Positions 1-20,077 of a stretch of DNA of 64,000 nt are shown here, piece by piece; the stretch's first letter is position 1; every line of letters starts with the position of its first letter. Source of the stretch: Microbacterium sp. W4I20 (GTDB lineage: Bacteria > Actinomycetota > Actinomycetes > Actinomycetales > Microbacteriaceae); NCBI RefSeq assembly GCF_030816505.1, contig NZ_JAUSYB010000001.1, forward strand, positions 1,798,001 through 1,862,000, written 5' to 3'. The notes under the pieces are model-generated. The model saw only the letters and a program-made list of their open reading frames with translations. It made no database searches and had not been told where the DNA came from. A program made the translations under genes and the position numbers.

Positions 1-145
1 GCGCTCGGGCTCTTTCCCGTCTCCGGGTGAAGGTGAAGGACGGTCCCCTCGACCATATCGACCCACCGGAGTGAACCATCGCGGTGATCCCACACCGGAC
101 CTTCCCCGTGAGAGCACAGCGTCGGAGTTATCTGCGCGACGGGAA

Positions 146-820
146 TCAATAGCTGGCCCGTCCACCGCTGATGTCGTAGACCGCGCCAGTCGAGAAGCTG
201 CACTGATCGGAGGTCAGCCAGGCGATTAGGGCGGCAACTTCCGCCGGCCGGCCCACCCGACCCATCGGGATGAGCGAGGTGATGTGCGCCAGCACGTCGG
301 GGGACGTCGTGGCATTCATGGGAGTGTCGATCACGGCGGGGGCGATTGCGTTCACGAGCACGCCGGTCTTGGCCAGTTCCTTGCCCAGAGATTTCGTCAG
401 TCCGATGATCGCCGCCTTTGACGCCGAATAGGCGCTGAGATTCGGATTGCCGTCCTTCCCGGCCATGCTCGCGATGTTGACGATACGCCCCCAGCCTCGT
501 TCCATCATCCCGGGCACGACTGCGCGCGTGACAGCGTATGTGCCATGGACGTTAACGTCGAAAGTGCGTCGCCAATCTTCCGGATCGACGTCCCACAACG
601 GCTGGTTTGGCCCTACGATTCCTGCACTGTTGACGAGGATATCGACGGGCCCGACCGCGATGACAGCTTCATGCACCGAAGCAGAGTCGGTCACGTCGAC
701 GTGGAAGTCAGCGCTGGCTGACACATCGAACGTGATGACCTCGATCCCGTCGGCGCGAAGTCGCTCAGCGCTGGCCGCCCCAAGCCCGCTCTGTCCGCCG
801 GTAATGATTGCACGCCTCAT
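146..820 (-). CDS. SDR-family dehydrogenase, candidate 2-keto-3-deoxy-sugar-acid 4-dehydrogenase
   Basis: This 224-residue protein is a classical short-chain dehydrogenase. The nucleotide-binding motif TGGQSGLG is at residues 7-14, NSAG at 64-67, and the catalytic Ser118 / Tyr131 / Lys135 set is present (YSASK). The family oxidises or reduces hydroxyls with NAD(P). The gene is the last seen of a minus-strand operon (dehydratase, deacetylase, transporter, GH78, FAH hydrolase, this gene), 40 bases after the FAH hydrolase. Next to a sugar-acid dehydratase and an FAH hydrolase, the likely step is oxidation of 2-keto-3-deoxy-L-rhamnonate (or fuconate) at C4, giving the diketo acid that the FAH enzyme cleaves. 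The SDR assignment is secure; the substrate is inferred from neighbours only. The operon may continue past the left edge. Confidence 0.85.
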   Translation of the reverse strand: MRRAIITGGQSGLGAASAERLRADGIEVITFDVSASADFHVDVTDSASVHEAVIAVGPVDILVNSAGIVGPNQPLWDVDPEDWRRTFDVNVHGTYAVTRAVVPGMMERGWGRIVNIASMAGKDGNPNLSAYSASKAAIIGLTKSLGKELAKTGVLVNAIAPAVIDTPMNATTSPDVLAHITSLIPMGRVGRPAEVAALIAWLTSDQCSFSTGAVYDISGGRASY

Positions 821-860
821 GTGACACTCCTAGCTATCGTGGTCGAGCGAATGAAGAACC

Positions 861-1721
861 TCATCGCGGGGCCAGAACCGTCTGACGTTGAGATCCGAGA
901 GCGTCGATCTCAAGTTCGATGACGTCTCCTGGCTGTAACCAGATCGGGGGCTGAAACCCCATACCGACACCTGGAGGCGTCCCCGTGTTGATGAGATCCC
1001 CCGGCTCTAACACAAGAAACTGGCTGATGTAATGCACGATGAAATAAGGGTCGAAGATCATCCTCGAAGTGGAGCCGTCCTGCCGACGCACGCCGTTGAC
1101 GTCTAACCTCATCCCGAGTGCGAGGACGTCCGCTACTTCGTCCTGGGTTACCAGCCACGGTCCCACCGGGTTGAACGTCTCAGCTGACTTGCCTTTAAGC
1201 CACTGACCACCTCGATCCAACTGGAAAGCACGTTCGCTAACGTCGTTGACGACGACCCAGCCGGCGATGCAGTCACGCGCCTGCTCCGGAGAGGCCAGAT
1301 AACTTGCCCGCTCGCCGATGACAATGCCGAGTTCGACTTCCCAATCAGGCTTGGTCGAACCGCGGGGAATCCGCACATCGTCATTCGGACCGACGAGCGT
1401 GTTGGGTGACTTGGTGAACAAGATCGGCTCCGCAGGTACCGCCTGCCCCGTCTCCGCCGCGTGATCGCTGTAGTTCAATCCGACGCAGATGATCTGGTGG
1501 GGCCGGGCAATCGGCGCCCCAATTCGTTGACACAGGAGCAGATGGACGTCGCCAGATTGAACACGTTGATCAACCACGGGCCGGATGCGTTCTATCCCCC
1601 CGCCGGCAAAGAACGCCTCGTCGTACTCAGTGACGACGTCGGAGAGATCGACGTAGGTGTCGTCAGTGATGAACACCGCGGGCCGTTCCTCGCCAATGGC
1701 TCCGATCCGAGCAAGCTTCAT
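861..1721 (-). CDS. FAH-family hydrolase, candidate 2,4-diketo-3-deoxy-sugar-acid hydrolase
   Basis: The 286-residue protein belongs to the fumarylacetoacetate hydrolase family. The segment GLNYSDHAAE (81-90) is typical. The metal ligands appear as Glu128 and Glu130 in DWEVELG and Asp160 in VVND, followed by KGKSAETFNPVGPW and a C-terminal INTGTPPGVG motif. Members cleave C-C bonds of beta-diketo acids using Mg2+ or Mn2+. In the oxidative L-rhamnose and L-fucose pathways a member of this family splits 2,4-diketo-3-deoxy acids into pyruvate and lactate. The adjacent SDR, GH78 and upstream dehydratase make that role likely here. It lies 78 bases downstream of the GH78 gene on the same strand. 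Alternatives such as acylpyruvase or 2-hydroxyhepta-2,4-diene-dioate isomerase cannot be excluded from sequence alone. Confidence 0.85.
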   Translation of the reverse strand: MKLARIGAIGEERPAVFITDDTYVDLSDVVTEYDEAFFAGGGIERIRPVVDQRVQSGDVHLLLCQRIGAPIARPHQIICVGLNYSDHAAETGQAVPAEPILFTKSPNTLVGPNDDVRIPRGSTKPDWEVELGIVIGERASYLASPEQARDCIAGWVVVNDVSERAFQLDRGGQWLKGKSAETFNPVGPWLVTQDEVADVLALGMRLDVNGVRRQDGSTSRMIFDPYFIVHYISQFLVLEPGDLINTGTPPGVGMGFQPPIWLQPGDVIELEIDALGSQRQTVLAPR

Positions 1722-1799
1722 ACGTCTCCTTCTATCGATTTTCGAATGACGCTCCTCTTACAGCACAGTCGGAGATCGGTCTCAGACGGAGCGTGAGGA

Positions 1800-4106
1800 T
1801 CACTCAACTCGAAGGGCAATCGGCATCTGCAGCGAGTGTGTGCCCGGCCCGAGTTCGACATCGTTTCTGCCTGGAACGCGGAACGTCCCTGTTGTTCCGA
1901 ACGGCAGAGTGACCGTGACTGCGATCTCGCGATCACGACGCTCCCACTGCACCGTGGCAACGCCATGGGGGGTCTTCAGACTCGTCTTGGCCCATTCAAT
2001 CTGATCGCCTGTAATAGGCGCGATCAGGATGCGACGGTATCCGGGCTCAAGCGGGGCGAGCCCACCGAGCACTCGGTGCATCCAATCCGCTACCGCTCCC
2101 AGCGCGTAGTGGTTGAAACTCGTCATGCCCCCCGGGTTGATACTCCCATCCGGAAGCATCGAGTCCCAACGCTCCCAGATCGTGGTCGCGCCCTGCGTCA
2201 CAGGATAAAGCCAAGACGGGCACTCCTTCTGCAGCAAGAGCCGGTACGCCGTTTCCACATGCCCGGTCGAGCTGAGTGCATCCATGATGAACGGGGTACC
2301 TGCAAACCCCGTCGAGATGTGATGGCCACTCGCGACGACTAGTTCGCTCAGCCGCCGCCCTGCCCAGTCGACCTGCTCCTCATCGAGAAGCCCGAACACG
2401 ATCGCAAGCGAGTAGACGGTAGGACAATCGCTGACGATGCGGTCACCATCCACATAGACGGTATTGAATGCGGTCTTGATTCGCGCAGCGAGCTGCGTGA
2501 ACTCCTCCGCTTCGCTCGCGTAGCCCAGAATCGCAGATGTTTCGGCTACGATCCGGGCGGTTCGATACGCGCACGCTGATGCCACGACGCCGGGGTCAGC
2601 TTTGGCCGCGGCAGCGTCTTCGGGTGGAGCGTCGGGGTCCAGCCAATCGCCGAACTGGAACCCTTCCTCCCACACGCCACGATCCGACAGCGCGTCTTGG
2701 ACTACGCGTGCATGCCTCGTCATCGACGGGAACGCATCGCGAAGCGTATCCGTCTCCCCGTATGCCTCCCACATAGCCCAGGGCACCCAAGCCGCCGCAT
2801 CACTCCAGATAGCGGTGACCGGCGGCTTGTCGTACACGCTCTCAGCCTCTATGTACTTCAGCACGTCGGGTACAACGAAGGGAACGACTCCGTCATGGTG
2901 CCGCTGTTCCAGGGCCAGATCGGTGAGCCAATTTTGAAGGAAGCCGCGGACGTCGAACAGGAACGACGCCGTAGGGGCGAAAGCTGCGATGTCTCCCGTC
3001 CATCCCAAACGCTCATCGCGTTGGGGGCAGTCTGTGGGTATGTCAACAAAGTTTCCTTGCATGCCCGTCACCACGTTTTGGTGGAGCTGGTTGAGCAGCG
3101 GGTCAGAGCACTCAAACTGACCGATTCGTGCCAAGTCCGAGCTGATAACCACCGCTTCCAGATCACCAGGCTGGATGGCGCTCATTGCGTGCGGCCAACC
3201 CTCAAGCTCGACATAGCGAAATCCGTGGAATGTGAACCTCGGCTCGAAGACGTCCTGCCGCCCACTGAGAATGTACTCATCCGTTGCCTTCGCCGTCCGG
3301 AGGGGTCGAGTCCCCAATTCTCCGTGCTCCAGCACCTCCGCATGACGCAGGATCAGGTGCGACCCGACTGAACCCGTCACCTTCACTCGGACCCAACCGA
3401 CTACATTCTTCCCGTAGTCGACGATGATCGTCCCTCTGGAAGTCGTCCACATGTCGACGGGCACGATCGAGTACTGGCGGCGGACCGGCGGACTGACATA
3501 GGGCACCAGCTTCCGCGGATCAACATCAACGACATGGGTGCCACCCCATCCATCGCCGCCGCCTTCACCGGTCCGCATGACAGCCTCGATATCGACTCGC
3601 CCGTCGATCGTCTGTCCGTCGTAAAGACTGTTGCTGAGGATAGAGCTCGGTCCAGCCATCCATGACGGATCCGTGCCGACGACCTGCTCGTGACCGTCTT
3701 CGAAGGCGATCCGCAACTCGAGTAGCGCTGCGAGTTCCTGCCCGTACGGTCGCGCGCCGTCACCGAAACCGAGTCGTCCCCGGAACCATCCGTTCCCGAG
3801 AACCGCACTGAGGGTGACCTTCTCCAAGGGGCCGTTCTCCAAGGTGCCGTTCTCCAAGTGCGACAACACGTCGTACTCCGCGTACCTCAGTCGCCACTCG
3901 TAGCTCGTCCAGCCGGGAGTCAGCAGGTCCTCCGAGATCGCCGCGCCGTCGATATACGCCTCGATCACTCCCAGCGCGGAGACGCGCATTGAAGCTCGGA
4001 CGATGGCGCCGTGGTCGCGATCAAGCGAAATGGTCTTGCGTAGGAGCGGTGCCGTCAAGTCGGCATCGTCGGGCGCTACGAACGCCGCCTCAAAGGTGGT
4101 GGTCAT
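1800..4106 (-). CDS. Alpha-L-rhamnosidase, glycoside hydrolase family 78, intracellular
   Basis: The 768-residue protein has the GH78 layout: N-terminal beta-sandwich domains, then an (alpha/alpha)6 barrel from about residue 330. The family signature CPQRDERLGWTGD lies near residues 359-371. TTIWERW near 643 supplies the Glu equivalent to the catalytic base of characterised GH78 enzymes. A C-terminal beta domain follows FNHYALGAVADW. GH78 removes terminal alpha-L-rhamnose from glycosides by inversion. No signal peptide is visible, so it should act on oligosaccharides or glycosides after import by the transporter encoded just upstream in the operon. A stretch reading LENGTLENGPLEK near residue 85-95 comes from a 15-base tandem repeat in the gene. 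Family assignment is strong; the natural aglycone is unknown. Confidence 0.93.
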   Translation of the reverse strand: MTTTFEAAFVAPDDADLTAPLLRKTISLDRDHGAIVRASMRVSALGVIEAYIDGAAISEDLLTPGWTSYEWRLRYAEYDVLSHLENGTLENGPLEKVTLSAVLGNGWFRGRLGFGDGARPYGQELAALLELRIAFEDGHEQVVGTDPSWMAGPSSILSNSLYDGQTIDGRVDIEAVMRTGEGGGDGWGGTHVVDVDPRKLVPYVSPPVRRQYSIVPVDMWTTSRGTIIVDYGKNVVGWVRVKVTGSVGSHLILRHAEVLEHGELGTRPLRTAKATDEYILSGRQDVFEPRFTFHGFRYVELEGWPHAMSAIQPGDLEAVVISSDLARIGQFECSDPLLNQLHQNVVTGMQGNFVDIPTDCPQRDERLGWTGDIAAFAPTASFLFDVRGFLQNWLTDLALEQRHHDGVVPFVVPDVLKYIEAESVYDKPPVTAIWSDAAAWVPWAMWEAYGETDTLRDAFPSMTRHARVVQDALSDRGVWEEGFQFGDWLDPDAPPEDAAAAKADPGVVASACAYRTARIVAETSAILGYASEAEEFTQLAARIKTAFNTVYVDGDRIVSDCPTVYSLAIVFGLLDEEQVDWAGRRLSELVVASGHHISTGFAGTPFIMDALSSTGHVETAYRLLLQKECPSWLYPVTQGATTIWERWDSMLPDGSINPGGMTSFNHYALGAVADWMHRVLGGLAPLEPGYRRILIAPITGDQIEWAKTSLKTPHGVATVQWERRDREIAVTVTLPFGTTGTFRVPGRNDVELGPGTHSLQMPIALRVE
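3820..3860. repeat. 15-bp tandem repeat inside the GH78 gene
   Basis: About 2.7 copies of the unit TTCTCCAAGGKGCCG start at 3820, 3835 and 3850. On the coding strand they read Leu-Glu-Asn-Gly-Thr/Pro repeated. The unit length keeps frame, so copy-number change would add or remove five residues in an N-terminal loop without breaking the enzyme. Confidence 0.85.
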
Positions 4107-4170
4107 GAACGTCTCTCTGACTGAGGGATTTGGGAGCGATTCTAGAAGGCCGTGTGGCTCGCAGTATGGA

Positions 4171-5082
4171 CTACTTCATGCCGCTGATGAGCATGCCGTC
4201 GCGGATCTGACGGTTGAAGATAAGGAACATGACCGTCGTCGGCACCAGGATGATGAACCCTCCGGCAAGCAGAGCCGGGAAGTTCGTCACGTATTGCCCC
4301 TGGAAATAGGTCAGGCCGACAGCGGCAGTCATTTGTTCTGGGGAGTTCAAGTAGATAAGGGGCCCGAGCAGATCGTTCCAGGAGCCGAGGAATCCGAGAA
4401 TCGCGAGCACAGCGAGGGGACCGCGGAGGAGAGGGAGGTAAATCGTGAAGAGAACTCTCGGAACGGAGCAGCCGTCCAGCACCGCCGCTTCATACAGTTC
4501 GTTCGGCACGCCGAGCACGAATTGGCGCAGGAAGAAGACAGCGAACGCGGTTCCCGTCCACATCGGCAGAATCAAAGCCCACGGGGTATCGACGAGGCCG
4601 ATCGCACGCATCATCGTATAGAGCGGGATCATCGTGATCGTTCCGGGAATCAGCAATGTGAACACGATGATCGCGAAGAGCGCACCTCGACCCGGGAACC
4701 TGAGTTTCGCGATCGCGAACGCGGCCAGCAGACTGCCCAGCAGATTTCCCGCTGTAGCGAGGACTGCGATGAAGAGTCCGTTGAACAGCATCCTCAGCAT
4801 CGGCATCTCTGTGAAGACATCCGCATAGTTCTGGAGCGTCCACGTCGTCGGCAGCACCGACAATGACGAGATGTAGTCCTCGTTCGTCCGGAAGGTGGTC
4901 AGCAACGTGATGAGAAACGGACCGAGGATGACGAGAGAGCCCAGGGCGAGGACGACGTACGCGACGATCGAGTGCTCGCGTCGCTGCCGCCTTCGAGGCG
5001 TCTTATAGCCGCGTCGCATGGTTACTAACGACGCCGTTGCGGACTCCTGGGCATTCGACGTCGAAATCAGACTAGATGTCAT
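4171..5082 (-). CDS. Carbohydrate ABC transporter permease, MalG type (CUT1)
   Basis: A 303-residue integral membrane protein with about six predicted helices. The EAA loop near residues 195-215 (EAAVLDGCSVPRVLFTIYLP) is where such permeases contact the ATPase. An extended basic N-terminus (RRRQRRE) precedes the first helix. It pairs with the MalF-type permease whose gene overlaps it by 11 bases, and with the lipoprotein encoded two genes upstream. No ATPase gene lies in this operon; CUT1 systems often share one multitask MsiK-type ATPase encoded elsewhere, which would apply here. The substrate is probably a rhamnose-containing saccharide, inferred from the GH78 gene that follows. Confidence 0.93.
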   Translation of the reverse strand: MTSSLISTSNAQESATASLVTMRRGYKTPRRRQRREHSIVAYVVLALGSLVILGPFLITLLTTFRTNEDYISSLSVLPTTWTLQNYADVFTEMPMLRMLFNGLFIAVLATAGNLLGSLLAAFAIAKLRFPGRGALFAIIVFTLLIPGTITMIPLYTMMRAIGLVDTPWALILPMWTGTAFAVFFLRQFVLGVPNELYEAAVLDGCSVPRVLFTIYLPLLRGPLAVLAILGFLGSWNDLLGPLIYLNSPEQMTAAVGLTYFQGQYVTNFPALLAGGFIILVPTTVMFLIFNRQIRDGMLISGMK

Positions 5083-5995
5083 AGTTGACCCACTTCTTCT
5101 GAACTTTGAGTTGAATCGCAGTCATCGATAGCAGAATCACGATGAGGAACACCGAAAGCGCAGCCGCGTATCCCATCTGGAGACCGCCGAAAGCTCGCTC
5201 GTAGATGTAGGCCATGATCGTGAGAGTCGAGTCCAGTGGCCCTTTGAGAATGAACACTTCACCGAATGTTTGGAAGCCCGCGATGAGGGAGATGATGAGA
5301 ACGAAGAAGGTGGTGGGAGTCAGAAGTGGGAACGTTACGTACCGGAATCGCTGCCATGCGTTGGCCCCATCAATCTCCGCCGCGTCGTAGTACTCCTGGG
5401 GGATGGTCTGCAGACCGGCAACATAAAGAAGGGCTATGTAGCCGACCCCTCCCCAAACGACCATTACGGCGATCGATGTGAGCGCGTGATCCGGTCCCAT
5501 CCAGAAGACAGGCTCCCACCCGAGGGCGGCTCTGAATTGGTTGAGCAATCCGTCGACGTCGTACAGATACATCCAGATGAAAGCGACGGATACCACATGA
5601 CAAGTCGTAGGGAAGAAGAGAGCTAATCGGAAGAACGTGCCGAAGCGGGTCACCCTGGTCATGGCGACACCAAGCCCGAGACCGATGGCGATCTTCGCTG
5701 GCACCGTGAGTATCACGAGGAGAGCAGTGTTACTCATTGCCTTCCAGAAGCGGGGGTCGCCGAAGGCGGAGGTGAAGTTGCCAACACCTAGCCATTGAGC
5801 GGGGGAAATAAGATCCCAGCTGGTGAAGCTCAGGGCGATGCCGATCGCGGCCGCGACGTACACCAGGGCCAGCCCCACGCAGATGGGGACAATGAATACA
5901 GGTAGCCATCGTTTCGATCCGGGCGTGAAGTTATGGATCTGTTTAGCGGTGGCTCCCGGTGCTGTGGGGCTGGCGCCCGGTGACGTGGTAACCAT
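5072..5995 (-). CDS. Carbohydrate ABC transporter permease, MalF/UgpA type (CUT1)
   Basis: The 307-residue protein carries about six membrane helices and the EAA motif EYYDAAEIDGANAWQRFRYV near residues 200-220. Length and order (solute-binding protein, MalF type, MalG type) are standard for CUT1 sugar importers. It begins two bases before the stop of the binding-protein gene region and overlaps the next permease by 11 bases, so the three are almost certainly co-translated. The N-terminal 35 residues are Pro/Ala/Thr rich and cytoplasmic. Function as a sugar channel half is secure; substrate specificity rests with the binding protein and is inferred from the operon. Confidence 0.93.
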   Translation of the reverse strand: MVTTSPGASPTAPGATAKQIHNFTPGSKRWLPVFIVPICVGLALVYVAAAIGIALSFTSWDLISPAQWLGVGNFTSAFGDPRFWKAMSNTALLVILTVPAKIAIGLGLGVAMTRVTRFGTFFRLALFFPTTCHVVSVAFIWMYLYDVDGLLNQFRAALGWEPVFWMGPDHALTSIAVMVVWGGVGYIALLYVAGLQTIPQEYYDAAEIDGANAWQRFRYVTFPLLTPTTFFVLIISLIAGFQTFGEVFILKGPLDSTLTIMAYIYERAFGGLQMGYAAALSVFLIVILLSMTAIQLKVQKKWVNYDI

Positions 5996-5997
5996 GA

Positions 5998-7293
5998 TCA
6001 GGGAACGGTGTCCAGCAGCGCCTGAACCTTCACGTCGAGTTCCGTGAGGATTGCTTCGACATCCGAGTCGGCGGACTCGAAGATCTTGTAGTCTGCTTCA
6101 TTTTCTACGATTGAGATATCTGTGAACTTGGGTCCGAATGCCCATCCGCCGCCGTGTTCGACCGCTTCCTGCACGAAGTATCCGTAGTTCGCGGGCCCCT
6201 GAGCTGCCTCTGCGGCGATGCGCTCCTCATCGGTGAGAAGCTCTGTAAGTACTGGAGCCCCGACGTTTGCAATGATGGTCTGCGCGTCGGGATCGAAGAC
6301 GACGTACTTGATGAACTCCTGAGCGGCGTCAGGGTGCTTGCTGCTCGATGTCACGGAGATGAGGTCCGGGCCAGCATAGTTCGTTCCCTGGAACTCCCCG
6401 CTCGGGTTGGGCAGGATGTCCCAATCGAAATTCTCGACCCCTTCCCGGAAGACCCCCGTCATCCAACTCCCATTGAGAGTCATGGCCACTTGCTCCGTCA
6501 CAAACGGATCCTTCTGCGCAGAGACGTCTTTGGGGTGAGGAGCCACCTTCTCGACGTAGATCAGGTCTCGGAGCCAGGTCTTGTACTCGATCATCTCGGG
6601 CGTGTCGTAGGTCGCAGTGCGACCATCGTCCGAGACGGGTGACGCGTCGAAGAGGGAGGCGAAGGCGACTCCGGGGCCCGTGCCAGGGATGGCGATGCCG
6701 TACATGTCATCGGTCGTCATCGCCTTCGCGGCGGCGACGAACTCGTCGATAGTCCACCCATCCTCGGGGACCTCCACGCCGGCAGCTTCCATCGCCGAAG
6801 TGTTCCCATAGATTGATCCGCCGACGAACCGCATCGGCAGAGCGTATGTCACATTCTCGCCATCGACCTCGGTCTGGCCTGACTTGAGGAGGTTTTCCGG
6901 AACCTTCTCGAAGTCCGCGGACAGTTCATCCAGGGCGATCAGCTGCCCGGCCTGCCCCAGCACGCCCGATTGGAATTGCATCCCGACCACGTCCGGCGCG
7001 GAGTTGCTGGCCATCTGCGTGTTCAGCTTCGTCCAGTACGACTGGTAGTCGAGCGGCTCGAACTTGACCGAGATATCGGGGTTCGCCTTCTCGAAGCTCT
7101 CGATAATGTCGTTCCAGACATCGACGTCGGGCCCGGCGGCCCACATCGAGAAGCGGATCTCGGTGCTGGTTGAGCCGCCCGATCCCCCTGATGTGGGGCT
7201 GCACGCCAGTAGCGTCGTTGCTACTACGGCCATCGCAGCAGCAGCAGCAAGCGCCCTCGACCGCTTGCTCTTGCTTTGACTGGTTCTTTTCAT
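5998..7293 (-). CDS. Sugar ABC transporter substrate-binding lipoprotein (CUT1)
   Basis: The 431-residue product has a signal peptide ending in the lipobox TLLAC with lipidated Cys31, then a Gly/Ser linker, then a family-1 extracellular solute-binding fold (SFEKANPDISVKFEPLDYQSYW, DELSADFEKVPENL). It should capture the oligosaccharide outside the membrane and deliver it to the two permeases encoded next. The ATG overlaps the PIG-L stop (ATGA, 7290-7293). The purine-rich PIG-L 3' end (Lys-Gln-Glu-Lys-Lys codons) supplies the ribosome-binding site. Start choice is supported by the complete signal peptide. The specific sugar is not visible in the sequence. Confidence 0.93.
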   Translation of the reverse strand: MKRTSQSKSKRSRALAAAAAMAVVATTLLACSPTSGGSGGSTSTEIRFSMWAAGPDVDVWNDIIESFEKANPDISVKFEPLDYQSYWTKLNTQMASNSAPDVVGMQFQSGVLGQAGQLIALDELSADFEKVPENLLKSGQTEVDGENVTYALPMRFVGGSIYGNTSAMEAAGVEVPEDGWTIDEFVAAAKAMTTDDMYGIAIPGTGPGVAFASLFDASPVSDDGRTATYDTPEMIEYKTWLRDLIYVEKVAPHPKDVSAQKDPFVTEQVAMTLNGSWMTGVFREGVENFDWDILPNPSGEFQGTNYAGPDLISVTSSSKHPDAAQEFIKYVVFDPDAQTIIANVGAPVLTELLTDEERIAAEAAQGPANYGYFVQEAVEHGGGWAFGPKFTDISIVENEADYKIFESADSDVEAILTELDVKVQALLDTVP

Positions 7294-8039
7294 TTCTTCT
7301 CCTGCTTCCTTTTCGTGCGGACAACGTTAACGTCGACGCCGAGACGTGGCAGATCTGGTCGACTTGGGGGGTAAGTAGGGATGTCGCGGAATGCCTCCGC
7401 GTATTGGACCCCCAGTTCGCGTCCCCTCATCGATGCCTGGGACCGAATGAATTCGAGGTAGTCCATGCCGAATATGTGATCGAGCCAGGCCTTCTGGCTG
7501 ACATGGGCTGCCGCCATTTCGATCTTTTGGTCCATCACGCTCGTGATGTCGACGTAGACGTCGAGTCCGCCTTCCAACTGGCCGATCGTGTCCATGGTGT
7601 AGAGCTTTGGTATCTCCGTGAGTGCGGGCAGGCGTGTCTCGACGAGTTTCACAGCCGCGGGAATGCGAGCATCCTGCGCCACCTGGCCCGCGATTCTGTG
7701 GTCGGGGTGGTAATCGCCCGTACTGTGGACGAGCATGATGTCTGGCCTGGCGTGACGGATGGCATCGATGAACACGGTTCTCGTAGCGCGGTCGTCGAAA
7801 AGCCACTCATCGTCGAAGTCCATCCAGATCAGCTCGGCGCCGATCACCGCGCATGATCGCTCGGCTTCGCGGCGGCGAAGTGCGGCTGTCTGGTCGCGGG
7901 TGAGAGTGGCCGATCCCACATTCCCGTTGGTCGCGATCGCAATGACGATGGAGTGTCCAGCCGCCGCGTAGAGTGCGAGCGTCCCGCCACAGAGGATGTC
8001 GATGTCGTCCGGGTGAGCACCGATCGCGAGAATCCTCAT
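7290..8039 (-). CDS. PIG-L/LmbE-family zinc deacetylase
   Basis: The 249-residue protein has the two hallmark motifs: AHPDDID (His9, Asp11, Asp12) and HPDHR (His111-Arg115). By comparison with MshB and LmbE relatives, His9, Asp12 and His114 should bind zinc and Asp11 should act as general base. The family hydrolyses N-acetyl groups on amino sugars and related amides; some members act on other acyl groups. It is translationally coupled on both sides: four-base overlaps with the dehydratase gene before it (8036-8039) and the binding-protein gene after it. No signal peptide is seen, so it works in the cytoplasm, presumably on the imported saccharide. Its presence in a rhamnose-type operon suggests an amino-sugar-containing or acylated substrate; that is inference. 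Confidence 0.9.
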   Translation of the reverse strand: MRILAIGAHPDDIDILCGGTLALYAAAGHSIVIAIATNGNVGSATLTRDQTAALRRREAERSCAVIGAELIWMDFDDEWLFDDRATRTVFIDAIRHARPDIMLVHSTGDYHPDHRIAGQVAQDARIPAAVKLVETRLPALTEIPKLYTMDTIGQLEGGLDVYVDITSVMDQKIEMAAAHVSQKAWLDHIFGMDYLEFIRSQASMRGRELGVQYAEAFRDIPTYPPSRPDLPRLGVDVNVVRTKRKQEKK

Positions 8040-9229
8040 GCGAGCCTCACCGCCGGCTCGATGAACGGAGAGCGGAAGACGGAATCGCCGTCGATTGTTA
8101 TCTCCACATTCACCGCATATCGACCCACGACCTCCTTGTTGATTGTCAGGCCGAGACCGGGTGAGTCTGGAACCCGCACGAGACCGTCGGCGTCGACGGC
8201 GAGCGTCTCAACCGTCAGGTCTCGCGACACTGGCTGCGAGTCGAGCGGGTACTCGCACCAGGTGGATGTCGCGTCGCCGACGTAGGGCTGGAGAGAGGCT
8301 GATAGCGCAAGGTGCGAGGTGAAGGTGTGGTTGAGGTAGGTGGCTCCGCGGTTCGCCGTTGCGCGGGCGACTCTGGAGGCCGTGGTGATGCCCCCGATGC
8401 GGCCGGCGTCGATCTGCAGGTAGTCGACGTTCGCGCTGTCCAGCATGTTGAGAGCCATTTCCTCACTATGGCTTCCCTCGCCCGCCGCGATCTTCACGTT
8501 GGTTAGTGCCCCGCGTAGTGTGCGGTATGCGCGATCGGCCCCGGGGATGAAAGGCTCTTCGAGGAAGAGTACGTGGAACTCCTCGAGAGCCGCGGCGCGT
8601 TCGATTGCTGGGGCCGGGTCGGAACCCCATGCCATGGCAGCGTCGATCATGAGTTCGGCCTCCCCGACGCCCTCGCGTGCGGCTGCCAGCTGGTCGACGT
8701 CATCCCGCAGGGACTGCGTTCCGAACCCCTGCCATCCGAATTTGACCGCCCGGAACCCGCTCTCGACGGCGCGCGCTCCCCTCAGCCGGGTCTCTTCAGG
8801 AGTGTCACCGAAAAGCACCGATGCGTACGGCCGTTTGCCCATCGATCGCTCCTGCCCGAGGAGTTTCCACACCGGCTCTTCGAATCGGCGACCGAGGAGA
8901 TCCCACATCGCGATGTCGATTCCGGACAGCGTGTGCGCCGTCTGCAGCAAGTCGAAGGACCGGGCCCGAGTTCGCCGCGAGATCGCGTCGATATCCTCGG
9001 CGCTCTCGAGCTTCTCACCCAGAATTGAGCTCAGCACGGGATGGCATGCGCTGTGTGACATGGGAGCGATGAGACTCGCGATCGAGGTCAGGGGCGAGGC
9101 CTCGCACTCCCCCCACCCTTCGTATCCTCCGGCTTCGACGCGGACGAGCAGGACATCCTGGCTGCCGTCACCGACATCGAGCACCTCCGGCATCGCCAGG
9201 TAGAAGAAGTCGACGGCGTCGATGTGCAT
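8036..9229 (-). CDS. Enolase-superfamily sugar-acid dehydratase (mandelate racemase group)
   Basis: The 397-residue protein is a mandelate racemase/muconate lactonizing enzyme homologue. The Mg2+ ligands read as Asp196 (IDAAMAWG), Glu224 (FLEEP) and Glu251 (AAGEGSH). The His301/Asp274 dyad (NHTF, IDAGRIGG) and Lys163 (VKFGW) complete an acid/base set typical of acid-sugar dehydratases. Such enzymes turn aldonates such as L-rhamnonate or L-fuconate into 2-keto-3-deoxy acids. It is the first gene of the operon, about 60 bases after a candidate promoter carrying the shared operator-like element. With the FAH hydrolase and the SDRs it supports the diketo-hydrolase pathway. The exact sugar acid cannot be read from sequence; the neighbouring GH78 favours rhamnonate. 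Confidence 0.88.
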   Translation of the reverse strand: MHIDAVDFFYLAMPEVLDVGDGSQDVLLVRVEAGGYEGWGECEASPLTSIASLIAPMSHSACHPVLSSILGEKLESAEDIDAISRRTRARSFDLLQTAHTLSGIDIAMWDLLGRRFEEPVWKLLGQERSMGKRPYASVLFGDTPEETRLRGARAVESGFRAVKFGWQGFGTQSLRDDVDQLAAAREGVGEAELMIDAAMAWGSDPAPAIERAAALEEFHVLFLEEPFIPGADRAYRTLRGALTNVKIAAGEGSHSEEMALNMLDSANVDYLQIDAGRIGGITTASRVARATANRGATYLNHTFTSHLALSASLQPYVGDATSTWCEYPLDSQPVSRDLTVETLAVDADGLVRVPDSPGLGLTINKEVVGRYAVNVEITIDGDSVFRSPFIEPAVRLA

Positions 9230-9288
9230 CGGAGGCTACCTCGCTGTTCCGTGGTTGGTCTGCGATGACGTGCGTTCGCAGTAAGTAC

Positions 9289-9319
9289 AGATAACCGCAA
9301 CACTACTTGTGTGTCAAGT
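9289..9319 (-). promoter_or_regulatory. Promoter and operator-like palindrome before the dehydratase operon
   Basis: On the minus strand TTGACA (9312-9317) is followed after 17 bases by TTATCT (9289-9294), a good -35 and a weak -10. The -35 sits inside the perfect inverted repeat ACTTG-TGTGT-CAAGT (9305-9319). The same 17-base string with one change occurs at the other promoter of the cluster (12813-12828), so a shared regulator, most simply the GntR protein, is likely. Confidence 0.65.
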
Positions 9320-9374
9320 GTCTCGTAGAATTAGGCAGTTCTGCCAACTCTGCCAACCAGGCCGCTGACTTGTA

Positions 9375-10118
9375 CTACAGGTTGAACGAGCGGATTCCTT
9401 TTGCTGTTGCGCCGCCATCGACCACGATCGCCTGTCCATTGATGAGCGATGACGCCTCGGTCAGGAGGAATTCAATGACGGAGGCCACCTCATCCGGCGT
9501 TCCCATCCGTCGCATAAGGTGCAGTGACTCGTCTGCGGCTTGTGCCTCGGCGGGGTCATCGGCGCGTTCCCATTCGAGCCTGCACATGTCAGTGTCGATC
9601 GCACCCGGGAGGACGACGTTCGACCGAAGACCCGATGCGCCGTAGTCCACCGCGAGCTGACGAGCCATCGCCACGACGGCTCCCTTCGTCGCCGCGTAGA
9701 CGAAGGCGCTCGGGAACCCGACCAGCGCATGGATGGAGCTCACGGACACGACTGACCCCCCGTCGGGCATCGCGCTTGCGGCGGCCGCGCATCCCAATAG
9801 CGTTCCGACCAGGTTCACGTCAACCTGGGGGCGGATATGTTCGAGCGTGATCTCCGATGCGGGCGCAGCCAACTGAATGGCTGCGTTGTTGACCCACCCC
9901 CGGAGGGGCGCCATTTGCGCGGCGGTATCGGCCGCTGCCGCATGCGTCTCCGGGTCGCGAACATCGCCGATGACTCGTGCGATGTTCGGGATCTCAGGTC
10001 CGCGGGGATGGACAATATCGACCGCGACGACGGACCATCCGGCACGCGCGAGTCGGATCGACGTCGCTCGCCCGATGCCGTTGCCCGCACCCGTCACCAC
10101 TACTGACTGCGTCAACAT
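9375..10118 (-). CDS. SDR-family dehydrogenase, candidate L-rhamnose/deoxyhexose 1-dehydrogenase
   Basis: From the preferred start the protein has 247 residues, with TGAGNGIG at 9-16, NNAA at 77-80 and the Ser128 / Tyr141 / Lys145 active site (YAATK). I chose the ATG at 10116-10118 because it is preceded by a GAGAGA ribosome-binding site and puts the nucleotide-binding motif at its usual distance; an upstream ATG at 10154 would add 12 residues. It follows the six-hairpin glycosidase gene by 84 bases and probably shares its transcript. As the second SDR of the cluster it could oxidise the free sugar at C1, the entry step of the oxidative pathway. This substrate is inferred. Confidence 0.85.
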
Positions 10119-10202
10119 TTCGGATCGTCTCTCTCGTGGCAATAGCGATGCCATATTCGCGCGGCGGTATAGTCACTGCCAACCTAGAGGTTGAGGCTCA
10201 GA

Positions 10203-12746
10203 TCATGTCCAGACGATGTCGAACTCGGCGTGGGTCGAAACGATCTCGATGTGAACGGCCTCCTCCTGAGCGTCGTAGGTCCCCGCCGTCACGGTCGCAG
10301 CGCCACCTCCTCGCGGATGCGGCAAGCGTACCGAGATGGCGTCAGGGTGTCGATCCGGGTCGAACGAAGCGGAGAATCGAGCGCTGTTCCCGTCATCACT
10401 TACAGTCACGCAGGCTGAGACTGGTCCAAAGTAGCTGCGGACATTCGTGAGTTCGATGCGCTCCTTTGGGGACATCCAAGATCGGGGGATGCCGGAGAAG
10501 AACTTCAGATCGCGGCCGTCCTCGAGGTACAGCATCCACCTGGTCTGCATGAGGAACCATGCTTCCTCGTGTGTCTTGTGCGGGCTAGCGTGAAAGTAGT
10601 GTTCCCAGAACGAGTATGTTTCTCGGTCTGCCAACGAAGCGACCATCGTGAAGTAGGCGCGGAGAAACGCTCGGGGCTCTCCCCGACGCAGATGGACCAG
10701 AGGGTGGGGGCTGTAGTACGGCTGGCTGAAAGCTGCATTGTCGTGGAACGAGAGATCTGCGCTGTACTCCAGCATTTCTTGCGCCGTCGGCTCATCCGGT
10801 TCAAGTACCTCTTGCGCGATCAACCAGAGCGGTCCGATCAACGCGTCTCGCGTAGTGATCGTGCCGTGCGAGAACGCGGGCTCAGCGGTCCGTGCGAGCA
10901 TGACAGGTCCAGGGTGCCCGGCCCAGGGTGGCGCCGTCCGCGACCATGTCCCGTCGCTGAGTGGCACGATGGGCGAGATGGCCATCGCTTCTGCAAGAGA
11001 TGCTCGAATATCTTCTTTGAGATCATGAGCTGCTCTGGACCAGAGTGCACTGAGATCGGGGTCGATATCCTCGAACATCTCAGCGGCTCGCGAAAGCCCG
11101 AGGCATGCGAACCCGTTCAGCATGTAGGTGGCGAAGGGATCGTCGGGATCTGCGACTTTCCCGACGAGCAGCCCGTGCGGCTCGACACCTTCGCTCTGCT
11201 GGACGGCTCTCTGATCGAGGATGTAGCCGACGGCGCTCTCAATTGTCGCGCGTGAACGAGAGAGCCAGTCGGCGTCGCGATGGATCCGATAGTGCTCACC
11301 GAACGACCACAGGATCGCTTCGGTCTCCAGCATGTAGCCGTTGAAGTTTTGAATGAACCCATCGGGTCGTTGTTTCATTGAGAAATAGTCCAACGATCGG
11401 CTTGCGACGTCCGACCACCCCATCGAATCGAAGAACTGAATGATGGGCCCGCTTTCGGAGCCGATCGGGCTGTAGACGCCAATCATCGGCGCGAGCGGTG
11501 CCTCTGGTTCCGATCCGAAAGTGATGAGGTCCAAGTGGAGCAGCCCAGCGGAGATCATGTTCGCGATGCGCGGATCCGGAACCTTGATCGAAGCCGCTGA
11601 GGACAACTTGGCTTGCCAGTATCGGGAAACATCGGCAGTGATGAGATCCGTCGACTTCGCATAGAGCGCAAGCGCCCGCTCGGACGTCACCGGGGTGTGG
11701 GGAATTGCCACGTCAAGGGTTGCTTCTCCTCCAGGAGCGAGGAGCAGGGCCGTCTCCTCGTGCTCGGGGGCACGTCCGTTCAACTTTGCCACAGCGTAGA
11801 TTCGACCATCCGCGAGAGCACCATACCCATCCGCGAAAACGTGGTCGATGAGAGTCTCGCCACCAAGCTTGTATGGAGCGGGCACGCCAAAGAACGCATG
11901 CCTTGCGACAGATGCGTTGTTCTCCGCTCGAATGCGCAGGAAGAGCACCGTCTCCTCCGCCGGCTCATACTCCCCTAGCTGAGCTTCGTACTCGGCCGTT
12001 TGGTCTGCCGTGAATGTGTGGCCACCAGCATGCCCGTCGGCGACCAGAGCGGGGGTCCCGAAGATCGGATTTTCGGCCAGCGACGAGACCTCCAAAGAAA
12101 CAAACGCTGTGACGGTGTAAGTGATCTCACCATCCGGCACGCTGGCGACGAGGATCGGGAGGCAACCATCGACTAGCGACCGGGCGACGTCATGCTGCGA
12201 ACTGATCCCTCTTCCGAGGTTATAGCGATAGTTCACGGGGTCACCGTCCGGGTCAAGCGTGACACCCTGCCAATGCCGAAGAGGCGTGACCCAGTTCGCC
12301 GAGCGCTCGGCGTCATTGACCGGCCCAACCCCTGCGAACCCGACCGAGAAAATCCTGTGATCACGTCCCAGACCGAGCCAGGTCGGCCCCGGCAGTGTGC
12401 GCCCGTTCGAAGCGGCAGCAAACGAATGCTCCTCAGATCCGAAGGACGCTAACGCCGTCTGCCTCCCCTTATCCTCGATACTCGACAACAAGGTAGCGAA
12501 GTCTGCCATGTTCTCGGCTAGAACGACGGCAGCTCCGACCCTGCGGACGAGCATCTGCTCTACTGTGTCAAGCTCGTCTGGCCAGAAGGAAAAGCCACCG
12601 TCAGCGGTGTCTACTCTGACGAGCTCGTGGGGGCGTGTCGACCACGACGCGAGAAATCGACCTGGCCTGACCTGATCGACTCGCTCCGCACCCCTCACCG
12701 TGGCGCGGGATGAGGGATCCTGCAACTCGACGGCAATCTCGTACAT
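10203..12746 (-). CDS. Putative six-hairpin glycosidase of unassigned family
   Basis: The 847-residue protein is not one I can place in a named family. The first 370 residues look beta-rich. From about 390 onward the pattern fits an (alpha/alpha)6 six-hairpin barrel: IIQFFDSMGWSDVASRSLDYF, KQRPDGFIQNFNGYMLETEAILW, WLIAQEVLEPDEPTAQEMLEY. A short beta tail ends it. Acidic residues in those stretches are candidates for catalysis, but no family signature is conclusive. There is no signal peptide, so it should act in the cytoplasm. It opens a two-gene operon with an SDR and carries the same operator-like promoter element as the dehydratase operon, which ties it to the rhamnoside cluster. It could process the saccharide backbone or the aglycone side after rhamnose removal. 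Confidence 0.65.
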   Translation of the reverse strand: MYEIAVELQDPSSRATVRGAERVDQVRPGRFLASWSTRPHELVRVDTADGGFSFWPDELDTVEQMLVRRVGAAVVLAENMADFATLLSSIEDKGRQTALASFGSEEHSFAAASNGRTLPGPTWLGLGRDHRIFSVGFAGVGPVNDAERSANWVTPLRHWQGVTLDPDGDPVNYRYNLGRGISSQHDVARSLVDGCLPILVASVPDGEITYTVTAFVSLEVSSLAENPIFGTPALVADGHAGGHTFTADQTAEYEAQLGEYEPAEETVLFLRIRAENNASVARHAFFGVPAPYKLGGETLIDHVFADGYGALADGRIYAVAKLNGRAPEHEETALLLAPGGEATLDVAIPHTPVTSERALALYAKSTDLITADVSRYWQAKLSSAASIKVPDPRIANMISAGLLHLDLITFGSEPEAPLAPMIGVYSPIGSESGPIIQFFDSMGWSDVASRSLDYFSMKQRPDGFIQNFNGYMLETEAILWSFGEHYRIHRDADWLSRSRATIESAVGYILDQRAVQQSEGVEPHGLLVGKVADPDDPFATYMLNGFACLGLSRAAEMFEDIDPDLSALWSRAAHDLKEDIRASLAEAMAISPIVPLSDGTWSRTAPPWAGHPGPVMLARTAEPAFSHGTITTRDALIGPLWLIAQEVLEPDEPTAQEMLEYSADLSFHDNAAFSQPYYSPHPLVHLRRGEPRAFLRAYFTMVASLADRETYSFWEHYFHASPHKTHEEAWFLMQTRWMLYLEDGRDLKFFSGIPRSWMSPKERIELTNVRSYFGPVSACVTVSDDGNSARFSASFDPDRHPDAISVRLPHPRGGGAATVTAGTYDAQEEAVHIEIVSTHAEFDIVWT

Positions 12747-12797
12747 GTCGGCCTCTCGATGACGATGTATACGCCGAGGAAGTCGGCCATCAAACCG

Positions 12798-12828
12798 ATG
12801 GTAGGCAAAGCCTACTTATGTGTCAAGT
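12798..12828 (-). promoter_or_regulatory. Promoter with operator-like repeat before the six-hairpin glycosidase
   Basis: On the minus strand TTGACA (12821-12826) and TACCAT (12798-12803) are 17 bases apart. The -35 overlaps ACTTA-TGTGT-CAAGT (12814-12828), which matches the dehydratase promoter element at all but one base. A second perfect inverted repeat, GTAGGC-AAA-GCCTAC (12801-12815), fills the spacer and is absent from the other promoter. This arrangement suggests repression by occlusion of the -35. Confidence 0.65.
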
Positions 12829-12895
12829 TCAGCAAACAAGCCCTATAGCGAGCGAGAAACACCTGCTTTACCGCTTTCTTGTATGAGAACCGATG

Positions 12896-13606
12896 TCATC
12901 GGTCGGGGTCACCGAGTCCGCGTTCGGTATCCGCTAGGTCCTCAACCATCGCTCGAGCCGCAGCCTCAGGATCGCCCGCCGCGATCGCGTCGCGAATGGC
13001 GATATGCCGATCGACGGCGACATCGTTGGTACCCCCATCGCGGAGGTAGCCATCCCAGACAGCCTGACGCGACTCCATGAGCAGCCCGGCAAGACCCTCA
13101 AGCACGAATCCGAAAACCGGATTCGCTGCGTTCGCGATCGTGCGGTGGAACTCGACGTCTGCCTTGAGCAGGTCAATGTCGTCCTTTCCGGAACGCATCT
13201 CACTCAAGAGATCTGACAGGCGCGCGATGATTGGTCCGTCCGGACGCGCCGCTGCGAGGCGAGCCGCGCCCACCTCGACAACCTCGCGAAACGCGTGGAG
13301 GTCTCGGAGGGACGCGCGTTCTATCGTGAACTTCGAGCTGAGTAGTGTGGAGAGCTGTTCCGCCTGCGGTCGCCTGATGACTCCTTCGCGTCCCTGACGC
13401 CTGTCGAGCAACCCCTGTCCCGACAGCTGCGCAAGCGCCTCCCTAATCACGGTGCGAGACACACCAAACTCATCAGCGAGTTTGCCGGTCGACGGTATCG
13501 AATCTCCATCGCTAAGGCCGATCTCGGCGAAATGAGCGGCGAGCCTTGCGGCGACGCGGTCCGTCATCGATGGCGCTGGCTCGCGTCCCGTGGGCAGTTG
13601 ACTCAT
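12896..13606 (-). CDS. GntR-family transcriptional regulator, FadR subfamily (FCD domain)
   Basis: The protein has an N-terminal winged helix (about residues 15-80; IPSTGKLADEFGVSRTVIREALAQLSGQGLL) and a C-terminal all-helical FCD ligand domain. Histidines in EFHRTIANAANP and DRHIAIRDAI match the usual metal site that binds carboxylate effectors. I prefer the ATG at 13604-13606 (236 residues) because GAAGGAA lies just upstream; an upstream ATG at 13666 would add 20 residues. FadR-type regulators commonly sense sugar acids or their breakdown products. Located beside the cluster, it is the best candidate to bind the repeated element at 9305-9319 and 12814-12828. Confidence 0.9.
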   Translation of the reverse strand: MSQLPTGREPAPSMTDRVAARLAAHFAEIGLSDGDSIPSTGKLADEFGVSRTVIREALAQLSGQGLLDRRQGREGVIRRPQAEQLSTLLSSKFTIERASLRDLHAFREVVEVGAARLAAARPDGPIIARLSDLLSEMRSGKDDIDLLKADVEFHRTIANAANPVFGFVLEGLAGLLMESRQAVWDGYLRDGGTNDVAVDRHIAIRDAIAAGDPEAAARAMVEDLADTERGLGDPDR

Positions 13607-14161
13607 AGCGGTTCCTTCGGGTTCACGACGGGACTGTCGGTGACGGCTGAGGGTCGGCGAATTCAACGGGGAGAACCAGCCCTCATCCGTATCGCCAGTC
13701 TGCCGGATCTTCGGTTCTCATGCTCGGGAAGTCATTGGCTCTTTCGACGCCTTCGGGGCACCGACGTGCAGCTTGTTCTCTGTAGAAGGGTTCAATCGCG
13801 CCAGCGTATCCCGCAGCAGCGCAGAGAGCACCAGAAACGATCGTTTACGGTGAATCGATCGCCGACTACCACCAGGTGTGCAACACACCGAAGGCTGATC
13901 CGCCAAAACCCCTGCCGAAACCAAGCCGCGCCGGAACATCGATATCACGGTTTTCGGCGCGGTCGCGAGCGACACCACCACAGACGCTTTCACGCCCTAT
14001 GTCCCGACTGCTATATCGCGAGCCGCGGACTCGACGGCGGCCGATCTTAGCTTTTGCGGGCATGTTCACGACCTCGCCTACGACTGCGTGAACCAGGGTG
14101 ACGTCTCGAACGTGCAGACGATCCAGCCTCCGGATTGAGCCGACCAGTCGTAGCAAAGCAG
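13607..14161. other. 555-base gap between the GntR gene and the relaxase gene, possible coding remnant
   Basis: No confident gene lies here. The first 60 bases could be an N-terminal extension of the GntR protein. On the plus strand 13899-14138 is open without any start codon and reads like ordinary protein (NIDITVFGAVASDTTTDAF, ending in TIQPPD and TGA). It may be the 3' scar of a gene broken when the mobile element and the sugar cluster were joined. A six-base inverted repeat GGTGTG-CAA-CACACC lies at about 13875-13889. I could not identify the remnant. Confidence 0.3.
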
Positions 14162-17100: not shown

Positions 17101-17719
17101 AGCCGCGGACATCGACCTGCGCAACCGCACCGTCACGGCCGGTTGCACCGGCGCGGGTGGCTGCAACCTCCCGCTCCATGAACGCAACCACCTCCCCAAC
17201 CGCCGCATGGTGCGCGTCCGCGATCACCGCCTGTGTCCCGGCATCCGCGACCGCCCACAACACGCTCGCGGACTTCGGGATCGAGAACGTGAAGTCGTAC
17301 CCCGCCACCGCCCTCCGCGTCCCGCGCTCGGACTCCTCCGCCTCGATCGCGGCGACGGCCTCTGCACGTGAAGCGCGCCCGAGGGCTGGATTGAGTGCCG
17401 CGGCGCGTTCCTCGATGCGCTCGGCAACGCTCCGGTATTCGGGGTAGGCGCGGCCGAGCGGATCGCCGGTGATGGGATCACGGCCCATGCCGACCAGGAG
17501 CTGGAGCTGAGCTTCGGAGACCTGATCGCCCACGTTGATCCGCCCGCCGCCAAGCGTGGCGACGCCCGTGCCGAGCCAACGGCCTGGCGGTGTGCCCTCA
17601 GCGTTGTAATAGCGCGTCAACGCGGTGGAGAGAGACCTGTCGCCGTCGCCGGCCGCGACGGTGCGCAGCAGATATTTGTATCCATCGCCCGCGCTCATCA
17701 CGCGCATCGACACCGTCAT
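14162..17719 (-). CDS. MobF-family conjugative relaxase-helicase (TrwC/TraI type)
   Basis: The protein of about 1185 residues starts at the ATG at 17717-17719, preceded by GGAGAAGGGCGG; an ATG 60 bases upstream is less likely. The N-terminal relaxase domain has Tyr residues in YKYLL and LTRYYNAEG, and the metal-binding triad in HYDSRAGDPHLHTHV near residue 222. It then has a superfamily-1 helicase with Walker A VGPAGAGKTT near 556, the DEAS box, and C-terminal SYRAQGITV and AMTRGREEN motifs. It would nick the element at oriT and unwind the strand for transfer. No coupling protein or type IV secretion gene is seen in the window, so the element is mobilizable at most, or decayed. The gene appears intact. 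Confidence 0.93.
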   Translation of the reverse strand: MTVSMRVMSAGDGYKYLLRTVAAGDGDRSLSTALTRYYNAEGTPPGRWLGTGVATLGGGRINVGDQVSEAQLQLLVGMGRDPITGDPLGRAYPEYRSVAERIEERAAALNPALGRASRAEAVAAIEAEESERGTRRAVAGYDFTFSIPKSASVLWAVADAGTQAVIADAHHAAVGEVVAFMEREVAATRAGATGRDGAVAQVDVRGLVATAFAHYDSRAGDPHLHTHVVISNKVQTVLDNKWRALDGGPMHAAVVALSELHEAVFADHLTRVLGVSWEARDRGRDRNPAWAVAAVPEALVKEFSTRARRIDTETDRLISQYIATRGRRPSSTTIMKLRAQATLSTRPDKKVRSLADLTTSWRERARQVLGADATAWARTVTVNDEPLLLRADDVPLDVIALLGQDVVTAVGEKRSTWHRWNLTAEAARQTMSYRFATTADREAVIGLVVDAAEAASLRLTPPELASSPAAFRRRDGTSVFRPKHSALFTSEVLLAAEDRLLERARTTTAPTVPLTTVEWTTKRPDSKGHVLGDDQAVALAKIAVSGRMLDVLVGPAGAGKTTAMSALRWAWEQEHGRGSVVGLAPSAAAAQVLADDLGIQTENTAKWLDIHDRTGETFRRGQLVIVDEASLAGTLSLDRITALAAEAGAKVLLVGDHAQLQSVTAGGAFSLLVQDRDDIPELVDVHRFVNPWEKTASLDLRHGRTEVIDTYAKHSRVIGGETEDMIDAAYTAWRADSLAGRASVLVTDSLESVQALNNRARADLILDGTVNPGRDVELHDGSRAAVGDTVITRRNDRRLRAGRSWVRNGDRWMITQVHHHGALTLRRAGRRWSGTVVVPAGYVTEHLDLGYAVTSYRAQGITVNSSHVLADASMTKETFYVAMTRGREENIAYVAVDKPDPAHDGPHPGDNTEATARSVLFGVLQHAGAELSAHETVTAEQDTWTSIAQLAAEYETLATAAQHDRWAALIRSSGLSGNGAEDAIASPAFGALTAELRRAEANQHDIETLLPHLVRTRGFGDAEDIAAVLHDRVANATSRPAGAGRARAAPRLIAGLIPEATGFMPSEMRRALTDRRDLIEARADVLVDTALTDKHEWITKLGTQPTQARAARGWRYGARTIAAYRDRYGITGSSPLGAQAESEAQKIDATRARAALHRVQNLAQAHPPEQQRTRRTEVQRVGPSL

Positions 17720-17737
17720 ACGTCCGCCCTTCTCCTC

Positions 17738-19991: not shown

Positions 19992-20047
19992 TTGGCGGCC
20001 GAAACGCGGCATTCACGTCAGATTGACCCCACAACCCCGGAACCAAG

Positions 20048-20071: not shown

Positions 20072-20077
20072 TCGCTG

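Follow-up and report, generated by a model that had tools for sequence, protein, structure and literature searches.

To establish which sugar is taken apart by the gene cluster at the left edge of a 64-kb stretch of Microbacterium sp. W4I20 DNA (hereafter the window; bases 1798001-1862000 of a 4.18-Mb contig), and by what route, we followed up a sequence-only reading that had proposed an oxidative pathway for L-rhamnose released from rhamnosides; the flank to the left of the window was also read (stretch L009). Five enzyme kinds, an aldose dehydrogenase, a lactonase, a dehydratase, a relative of 4-dehydrogenases and a FAH-family hydrolase, stand in one co-directional set, together with an importer, a GH78 alpha-L-rhamnosidase, a PIG-L family hydrolase and an 847-residue protein of predicted glycosidase fold (X847). 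We consider it likely that the tRNA-Ser island on which these genes lie encodes an inducible oxidative diketo-hydrolase route for one glycoside. That the cluster works like a diketo-hydrolase pathway is well supported by the predicted enzyme families, and this half of the earlier proposal stood; its other half, that the substrate is L-rhamnose or a rhamnoside, is much less well supported.

An oxidative sugar-acid gene set

Every gene named by the sequence-only reading, the single GntR regulator included, proved to be an intact open reading frame on the minus strand at the position it had given (Table 1), and each fell into the expected family by Pfam or NCBIfam, except X847. The lactonase that seemed to be missing was only hidden by the window edge: the next gene after SDR1, split by that edge and read whole in the left flank, encodes a lactonase of the SMP-30 type that scored far above the PF08450 cut-off (its closest PDB entry, 7plb, is also of the Smp-30 family). 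The gene starts with a TTG that overlaps the TGA codon of SDR1 at window 149-146 and ends about 0.69 kb outside the window.

Two of the five enzymes point to diketo-hydrolase chemistry through their nearest structures. The FAH protein was closest among PDB entries to 8gsr, an L-2,4-diketo-3-deoxyrhamnonate hydrolase (248.9 bits; runner-up 156.7), and SDR1 was closest to 6d9y (210.5 bits), followed by 9jve and 9kq1. PMC11199699 describes 6D9Y as a putative L-2-keto-3-deoxyrhamnonate (L-KDR) 4-dehydrogenase that shares 51 and 54% identity with two characterised L-KDR 4-dehydrogenases. The dehydratase carries the complete residue set of the MR/MLE enolase superfamily, three metal ligands, the beta-2 Lys and an Asp-His dyad, and its K163, D196, E225, E251, D274 and H301 were unchanged in 12 of 12 sequences. 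We take D196, E225 and E251 to be the metal ligands, K163 the beta-2 Lys and D274/H301 the dyad.

In the route that we propose, the CUT1-type importer would take up an oligosaccharide or glycoside, which PIG-L (as the deacetylase of an acetylated part), X847 and GH78 would dismantle inside the cell; judged by eye, neither the GH78 protein nor X847 has a signal peptide. SDR2 would convert the released sugar to a lactone for the SMP-30 lactonase to open, the enolase-superfamily enzyme would dehydrate the resulting aldonate to a 2-keto-3-deoxy acid, SDR1 would oxidise C4, and FAH would split the 2,4-diketo acid into pyruvate and a hydroxy acid, which would be lactate if the sugar is 6-deoxy. Both operons, as well as a secreted DUF5722 protein, would be controlled by the GntR protein via a shared operator.

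The LRA pathway of Sphingomonas and Herbaspirillum runs through the same succession of steps (dehydrogenase, lactonase, dehydratase, SDR 4-dehydrogenase and FAH hydrolase), and the last two window enzymes are nearest to relatives of LRA5 and LRA6. A predicted lactonase is likewise in the cluster, but the window dehydratase falls outside the L-rhamnonate family, GH78, X847 and PIG-L are in the window operons, and the cluster lies on an island in a genome from the class to which Jiangella belongs. Route 3 of the non-phosphorylating L-fucose pathway (FucA-B-C-F-G), which as outlined in the portion of PMC11199699 used here yields pyruvate and lactate, has the same lower-half chemistry, but SDR1 resembles the L-KDR type of 4-dehydrogenase and not the L-KDF type. 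An L-fucono-1,5-lactonase, going by a title cited in that paper, belongs to the amidohydrolase superfamily; the window lactonase is of the SMP-30 type. No paper describing this gene set was found in a search of open-licence literature, and the cluster is probably a variant of the known diketo-hydrolase route plus one new enzyme family.

Table 1. Features of the sugar cluster and the adjoining island genes (window coordinates unless given otherwise).
Feature	Coordinates	Strand	Evidence
Lactonase 5' end (SMP-30/gluconolactonase/LRE family)	1..149; whole gene L009:17307-18149, 280 aa	-	PF08450 207.5 bits, cut-off 26.3
SDR1, proposed 2-keto-3-deoxy-aldonate 4-dehydrogenase (LRA5-like)	146..820	-	best PDB 6d9y
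FAH-family hydrolase, proposed 2,4-diketo-3-deoxy-aldonate hydrolase	861..1721	-	PF01557; best PDB 8gsr
GH78 alpha-L-rhamnosidase	1800..4106	-	PF17389 379.5 bits; PF08531, PF05592 and PF17390 also over cut-off
CUT1-type permease (MalG-like)	4171..5082	-	PF00528 62.6 bits
CUT1-type permease (MalF/UgpA-like)	5072..5995	-	NCBIfam UgpA 102.4 bits, below cut-off 335
Solute-binding protein of the importer	5998..7293	-	PF13416/PF01547
PIG-L family zinc hydrolase, proposed N-deacetylase	7290..8039	-	PF02585
Enolase-superfamily (MR/MLE) sugar-acid dehydratase	8036..9229	-	PF13378/PF02746; best PDB 2hzg
Operator-like site ACTTGACACACAAGTAG before dehydratase operon	9303..9319	-	
SDR2, proposed aldose 1-dehydrogenase	9375..10154	-	PF13561
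X847, 847-aa predicted six-hairpin glycosidase	10203..12746	-	no Pfam or NCBIfam match
Operator-like site ACTTGACACATAAGTAG before X847 operon	12812..12828	-	overlaps the region's single promoter-like match
GntR/FCD regulator	12896..13666 (longest open reading frame), ..13606 (first ATG)	-	PF00392, PF07729
TrwC/TraA-type relaxase-helicase	14162..17779	-	PF08751 293.3 bits, AAA_30 194.9 bits
Tyrosine integrase	18690..19814	+	PF00589 33.2 bits, cut-off 27.1
Right attachment repeat	20075..20132	.	within or bordering tRNA-Ser(gct) 20077-20166

The identity of the sugar

The plainest substrate would be L-rhamnose, freed by GH78 with X847 as a second rhamnosidase-like enzyme and converted to pyruvate and L-lactate. 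The presence of GH78 in the operon and of more GH78-type genes on the island (four GH78 domains in L047:14970-16973, a single one in L047:11480-14056) favours this version, as does the nearness of SDR1 and FAH to L-rhamnonate-pathway enzymes. Several results weigh against it. SDR2 reached 112.1 bits with NF053807 (L-rhamnose 1-dehydrogenase, the LRA1 family; cut-off 400), the dehydratase 72.8 bits with NF011968 (L-rhamnonate dehydratase; cut-off 393) and FAH 312.6 bits with NF053535 (2,4-didehydro-3-deoxy-L-rhamnonate hydrolase equivalog, its best NCBIfam model; cut-off 500); because these three defining models were missed, we do not file the cluster as an L-rhamnose pathway. The best PDB match of the dehydratase was 2hzg, with 422.3 bits against 55.6 for the L-rhamnonate dehydratase 2i5q, and 2hzg is listed under its superfamily name only. 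The passages of PMC11199699 used here highlight Lys209 and Arg247 (6D9Y numbering) in the L-KDR 4-dehydrogenase pocket. In the alignment, SDR1 keeps the Arg247 equivalent, within a C-terminal GGRA-Y stretch, and has Leu at the Lys209 equivalent, a correspondence that depends on shifting the residue numbers by 8, an offset derived by hand.

SDR2 is a generic SDR with no PDB match at E values up to 1e-30, and its 60-62% identical relatives occur in Dactylosporangium, adjoining the lactonase gene there, and in Jiangella. The SDR family is very large, and close function is hard to read from the sequence of either SDR. Nor does FAH fix the sugar: the host genome gave nine FAH matches above the Pfam cut-off, and two of these genes adjoin other dehydratases. 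These two, 75% and 56% identical to the window FAH (L078:7019-9721 and L079:8168-10451), stand beside IlvD/EDD-type and enolase-superfamily dehydratases and suggest further oxidative sugar-acid routes in the host genome.

Outside the island, at window 32250-36939, lies a rhamnose isomerase cluster with RhaI (632.2 bits, cut-off 531.35), the aldolase-dehydrogenase RhaD-ADH (1321 bits, cut-off 1152) and a rhamnulokinase homologue (384.8 bits, below the cut-off of 527.95), and plain L-rhamnose is therefore probably already served by the host isomerase pathway. In addition, GH78 and FAH found no match in the related clusters of Dactylosporangium (L012) and Jiangella (L013) by tblastn, and SDR1 had no place of its own there. 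Weighing both sides, we regard the L-rhamnose version as possible rather than probable. The most likely substrate of the proposed diketo-hydrolase route would be an L-sugar glycoside whose partner group is perhaps acetylated.

X847, PIG-L and the related clusters

X847 had no sequence match in Pfam, NCBIfam or the PDB. Its predicted structure (pLDDT 88.7, pTM 0.90) is an (alpha/alpha)6 barrel, the six-hairpin glycosidase fold, for which structure comparison (Foldseek, VIA) pointed to no single parent family: GH65, MmpH (7qsj), 5z3c (titled Glycosidase), GH78, glucoamylase 1lf6 and others scored alike, and among the 50 matches listed X847 was 8-16% identical to six-hairpin glycosidases (GH65, GH78, GH95, GH94, GH63). 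Assignment to GH78 by sequence was rejected, with no Pfam match and an hhalign probability of 0.4% against three GH78 sequences, and a profile hit to the GH63 protein YgjK in the PDB (E 0.043 over 44 positions, with weaker rows below) was not taken as a match. By eye, FFDSMGW (D440) and FWEHY (E715) resemble RDERLGW and WERW of GH78; E715 is invariant, and position D440 is Asp in 25 of 27 homologues and Glu in the other two. Because hhalign did not align X847 with GH78, the naming of D440 and E715 as catalytic residues stays a guess.

Homologues of X847 were found in 27 loci from several phyla, a lower bound on family size since the search used six peptide patterns; none was dropped, the stretch L010 did not enter the analysis, and L037 was counted separately although it may be the other half of the L036 gene (one assembly). 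A Kiritimatiellae locus (L028) holds two copies, at 10001-12184 and 18003-20447, and an Oscillospiraceae locus (L032) three, at 1-828, 1064-3490 and 3737-6178. Judged against Pfam, NCBIfam and the PDB, X847 probably represents a new glycosidase family.

Neighbours of X847 were scored by tblastn with E up to 1e-8, several loci being ended by contig edges. PIG-L was the commonest neighbour among the genes looked for, present in 10 of the 27 loci (L012, L013, L014, L016, L017, L018 in pieces, L019, L024, L034 and L036). The 4.31-Mb host genome holds two PIG-L genes, so this count, judged from the host rate only, lies far above random expectation. A dehydratase relative occurred in 8/27 (weak in L022 and L032), SDR1- or SDR2-like genes also in 8/27, and a MalF-type permease in 4/27. 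FAH and GH78 were found in one locus each, FAH as two fragments, and thus lie outside the conserved core, which counts against the proposed route. A contig from Acidobacteriales (L035) has X847 with an SDR1-like gene, FAH pieces and an IlvD/EDD dehydratase, and a further locus with no match to X847 or PIG-L (L064) carries consecutive genes for an alcohol dehydrogenase (MDR), the dehydratase (54%), the parts of an importer, an SDR and FAH (60%).

By its PF02585 domain and HPDD zinc motif the window PIG-L protein belongs to the PIG-L/LmbE class, and its role as a deacetylase is predicted. Its best PDB match was the diacetylchitobiose deacetylase 8bgn (78.9 bits), with the 4-oxalmesaconate hydratase 5cgz lower (56.4 bits); the motif AHPDD was present in 10 of 10 aligned sequences and a later PDH in 9 of 10, the window included. 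In archaeal chitin breakdown a PIG-L deacetylase, diacetylchitobiose deacetylase, is likewise paired with a glycosidase, a glucosaminidase, but the fold of that partner differs and here an aldonate pathway follows. The recurrent pairing of PIG-L with X847 fits the earlier suggestion of a saccharide more complex than a plain rhamnoside.

The abundance of PIG-L beside X847, set against two genes in 4.31 Mb of host DNA, would also suit a cluster for an N-acetylated or otherwise amidated glycoside, with PIG-L as the defining step and oxidation of the neutral sugar secondary. Genes of amide-hydrolase type recur near X847 (AstE-like in L012 and L013, hydantoinase A/B in L035), and one locus without X847 (L076) has PIG-L together with an alcohol dehydrogenase and a dehydratase relative. 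However, the operon itself showed no recognisable gene of amino-sugar catabolism, and the GH20 and SIS genes of the island lie in another operon, where ACTTGACACAYAAGTAG, the operator pattern described below, had no copy at up to three mismatches. We find this reading doubtful.

Eight of the genes also stand together in Dactylosporangium and Jiangella (50-71% identity), which argues that the clustering is beyond chance. In Dactylosporangium, lactonase, SDR2 and GntR genes are followed divergently by dehydratase, PIG-L, importer and X847 genes (37-70% identity); Jiangella has the same set, with no lactonase match by tblastn. After X847, both have a zinc-type alcohol dehydrogenase and then an AstE/AspA-like hydrolase, and in Dactylosporangium there is also a glycerate kinase. 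LarA stands beside the Dactylosporangium lactonase gene, with nickel-insertion (LarC-type) and LarE-like genes downstream. Genes of nickel-pincer racemase type lie around this cluster at L012:882-2306 and 17276-19300. Both clusters have the alcohol dehydrogenase and AstE-like genes and gave no FAH or GH78 match; their upper cassette is thus that of the window, and their lower module a different one.

Such an arrangement raises the prospect that the sugar is an ordinary (6-hydroxy) or rare L-hexose and that the window version borrowed its FAH/SDR lower module; in Dactylosporangium the alcohol dehydrogenase, an AstE/DoeB-like hydrolase, the LarA racemase and glycerate kinase would then lead to pyruvate and glycerate. 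The genes that follow X847 there, the Lar-type genes around them and the 85-87% identity of the alcohol dehydrogenase and AstE-like genes between Jiangella and Dactylosporangium speak for it. The argument comes from gene position only, however, AstE/DoeB proteins are amide hydrolases by family name (the DoeB model gave 199 of 402.7 bits), and we know of no diketo acid hydrolase of this kind, so that we judge an L-hexose substrate unlikely. More speculative still, and in our view quite improbable, is the combination in which X847 founds an intracellular glycosidase family acting with PIG-L on an N-acetylated glycoside and feeding an aldonate cassette with an exchangeable lower half: SDR and FAH here and, in Dactylosporangium and Jiangella, the alcohol dehydrogenase with an AstE/DoeB-like zinc enzyme as a novel type of diketo acid (carbon-carbon) hydrolase, followed in Dactylosporangium by LarA racemase and glycerate kinase.

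A shared operator-like site on a tRNA-Ser island

The gaps before X847 and the dehydratase share a 17-base site with one base different, 66 bp and 74 bp before the respective start codons; the near-identical site ahead of each gene group backs the division into two operons made by the earlier reading. The pattern ACTTGACACAYAAGTAG was composed from both window sites, which match it exactly by construction; at up to three mismatches it had no further site in the 64-kb window, and 100 shuffles gave no match either. Left of the window, L009:15284-15300 is an independent third copy that departs from the pattern at two bases and directly precedes the DUF5722 gene (matches in 3 of 200 shuffles of L009); the stretch L047 gave no match. 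The DUF5722 protein (L009:11123-15250, 1375 aa) has a signal-like stretch and is possibly a secreted first step of the same regulon.

Dactylosporangium and Jiangella have one three-mismatch site each (matches in 1/100 and 2/100 shuffles, respectively), which lie before the gene of a protein that looks secreted (Tat signal model 15.8 bits, below the cut-off of 22.7), and by eye both have a looser copy between GntR and the dehydratase. A matrix of seven sites, which themselves score high by construction, found at scores >13 no extra site in nine stretches scanned except the same Jiangella site in L080. The secreted-looking Jiangella protein behind this copy (L080:1409-4909, 1166 aa) has no Pfam domain over cut-off, shares a 109-residue stretch close to its start with Dactylosporangium at 72% identity, and gave no match to DUF5722 by tblastn, the only comparison made. 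Promoter-like sites were fewer than in shuffles (1 versus a mean of 3.4) and terminator-like sites about as many (8 versus 8.1); inverted repeats were absent from window 9200-9420, and 12700-13800 held only one, inside the GntR gene. We infer that the GntR protein binds the shared site.

The integrase and relaxase genes sit between the sugar cluster and tRNA-Ser(gct), and a copy of the 3' part of this tRNA gene, with 58 identical bp, lies at C1:1770244-1770340, 47.8 kb left of the right repeat. An integrase near a tRNA gene and a duplicated attachment site are the marks of a mobile island, and the G+C content inside, 62.8%, is lower than in either flank (right, 69.3%; left, 65.9%). The 47.8-kb island is thus probably mobile and laterally acquired; plasmids gave no match to window 1-13700 or to X847. 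Its other genes include DUF5722 and those for GH20, SIS and solute-binding proteins. A piece of 430 bases (L009:10468-10897), placed between the GH20 region and DUF5722, is 95% identical to the window GH78 (2208-2637) and appears to be left over from a recent event, a duplication or a rearrangement, within the island. Beside the partial GH78-type gene, L047:9993-11426 encodes a 477-aa protein with weak arabinose/fucose isomerase domain matches (E 0.036 to 0.22).

In a 2013 survey (PMC3870299), the non-phosphorylated L-rhamnose route was confined to a small number of proteobacteria; if our reading is true, a diketo-hydrolase sugar route sits on a probably mobile island in a different lineage. 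X847, an apparently unnamed glycosidase family of several phyla with PIG-L as a recurrent partner, would be a clear target for enzyme discovery, and a common upper cassette with different lower modules would offer a testable case of pathway modularity.

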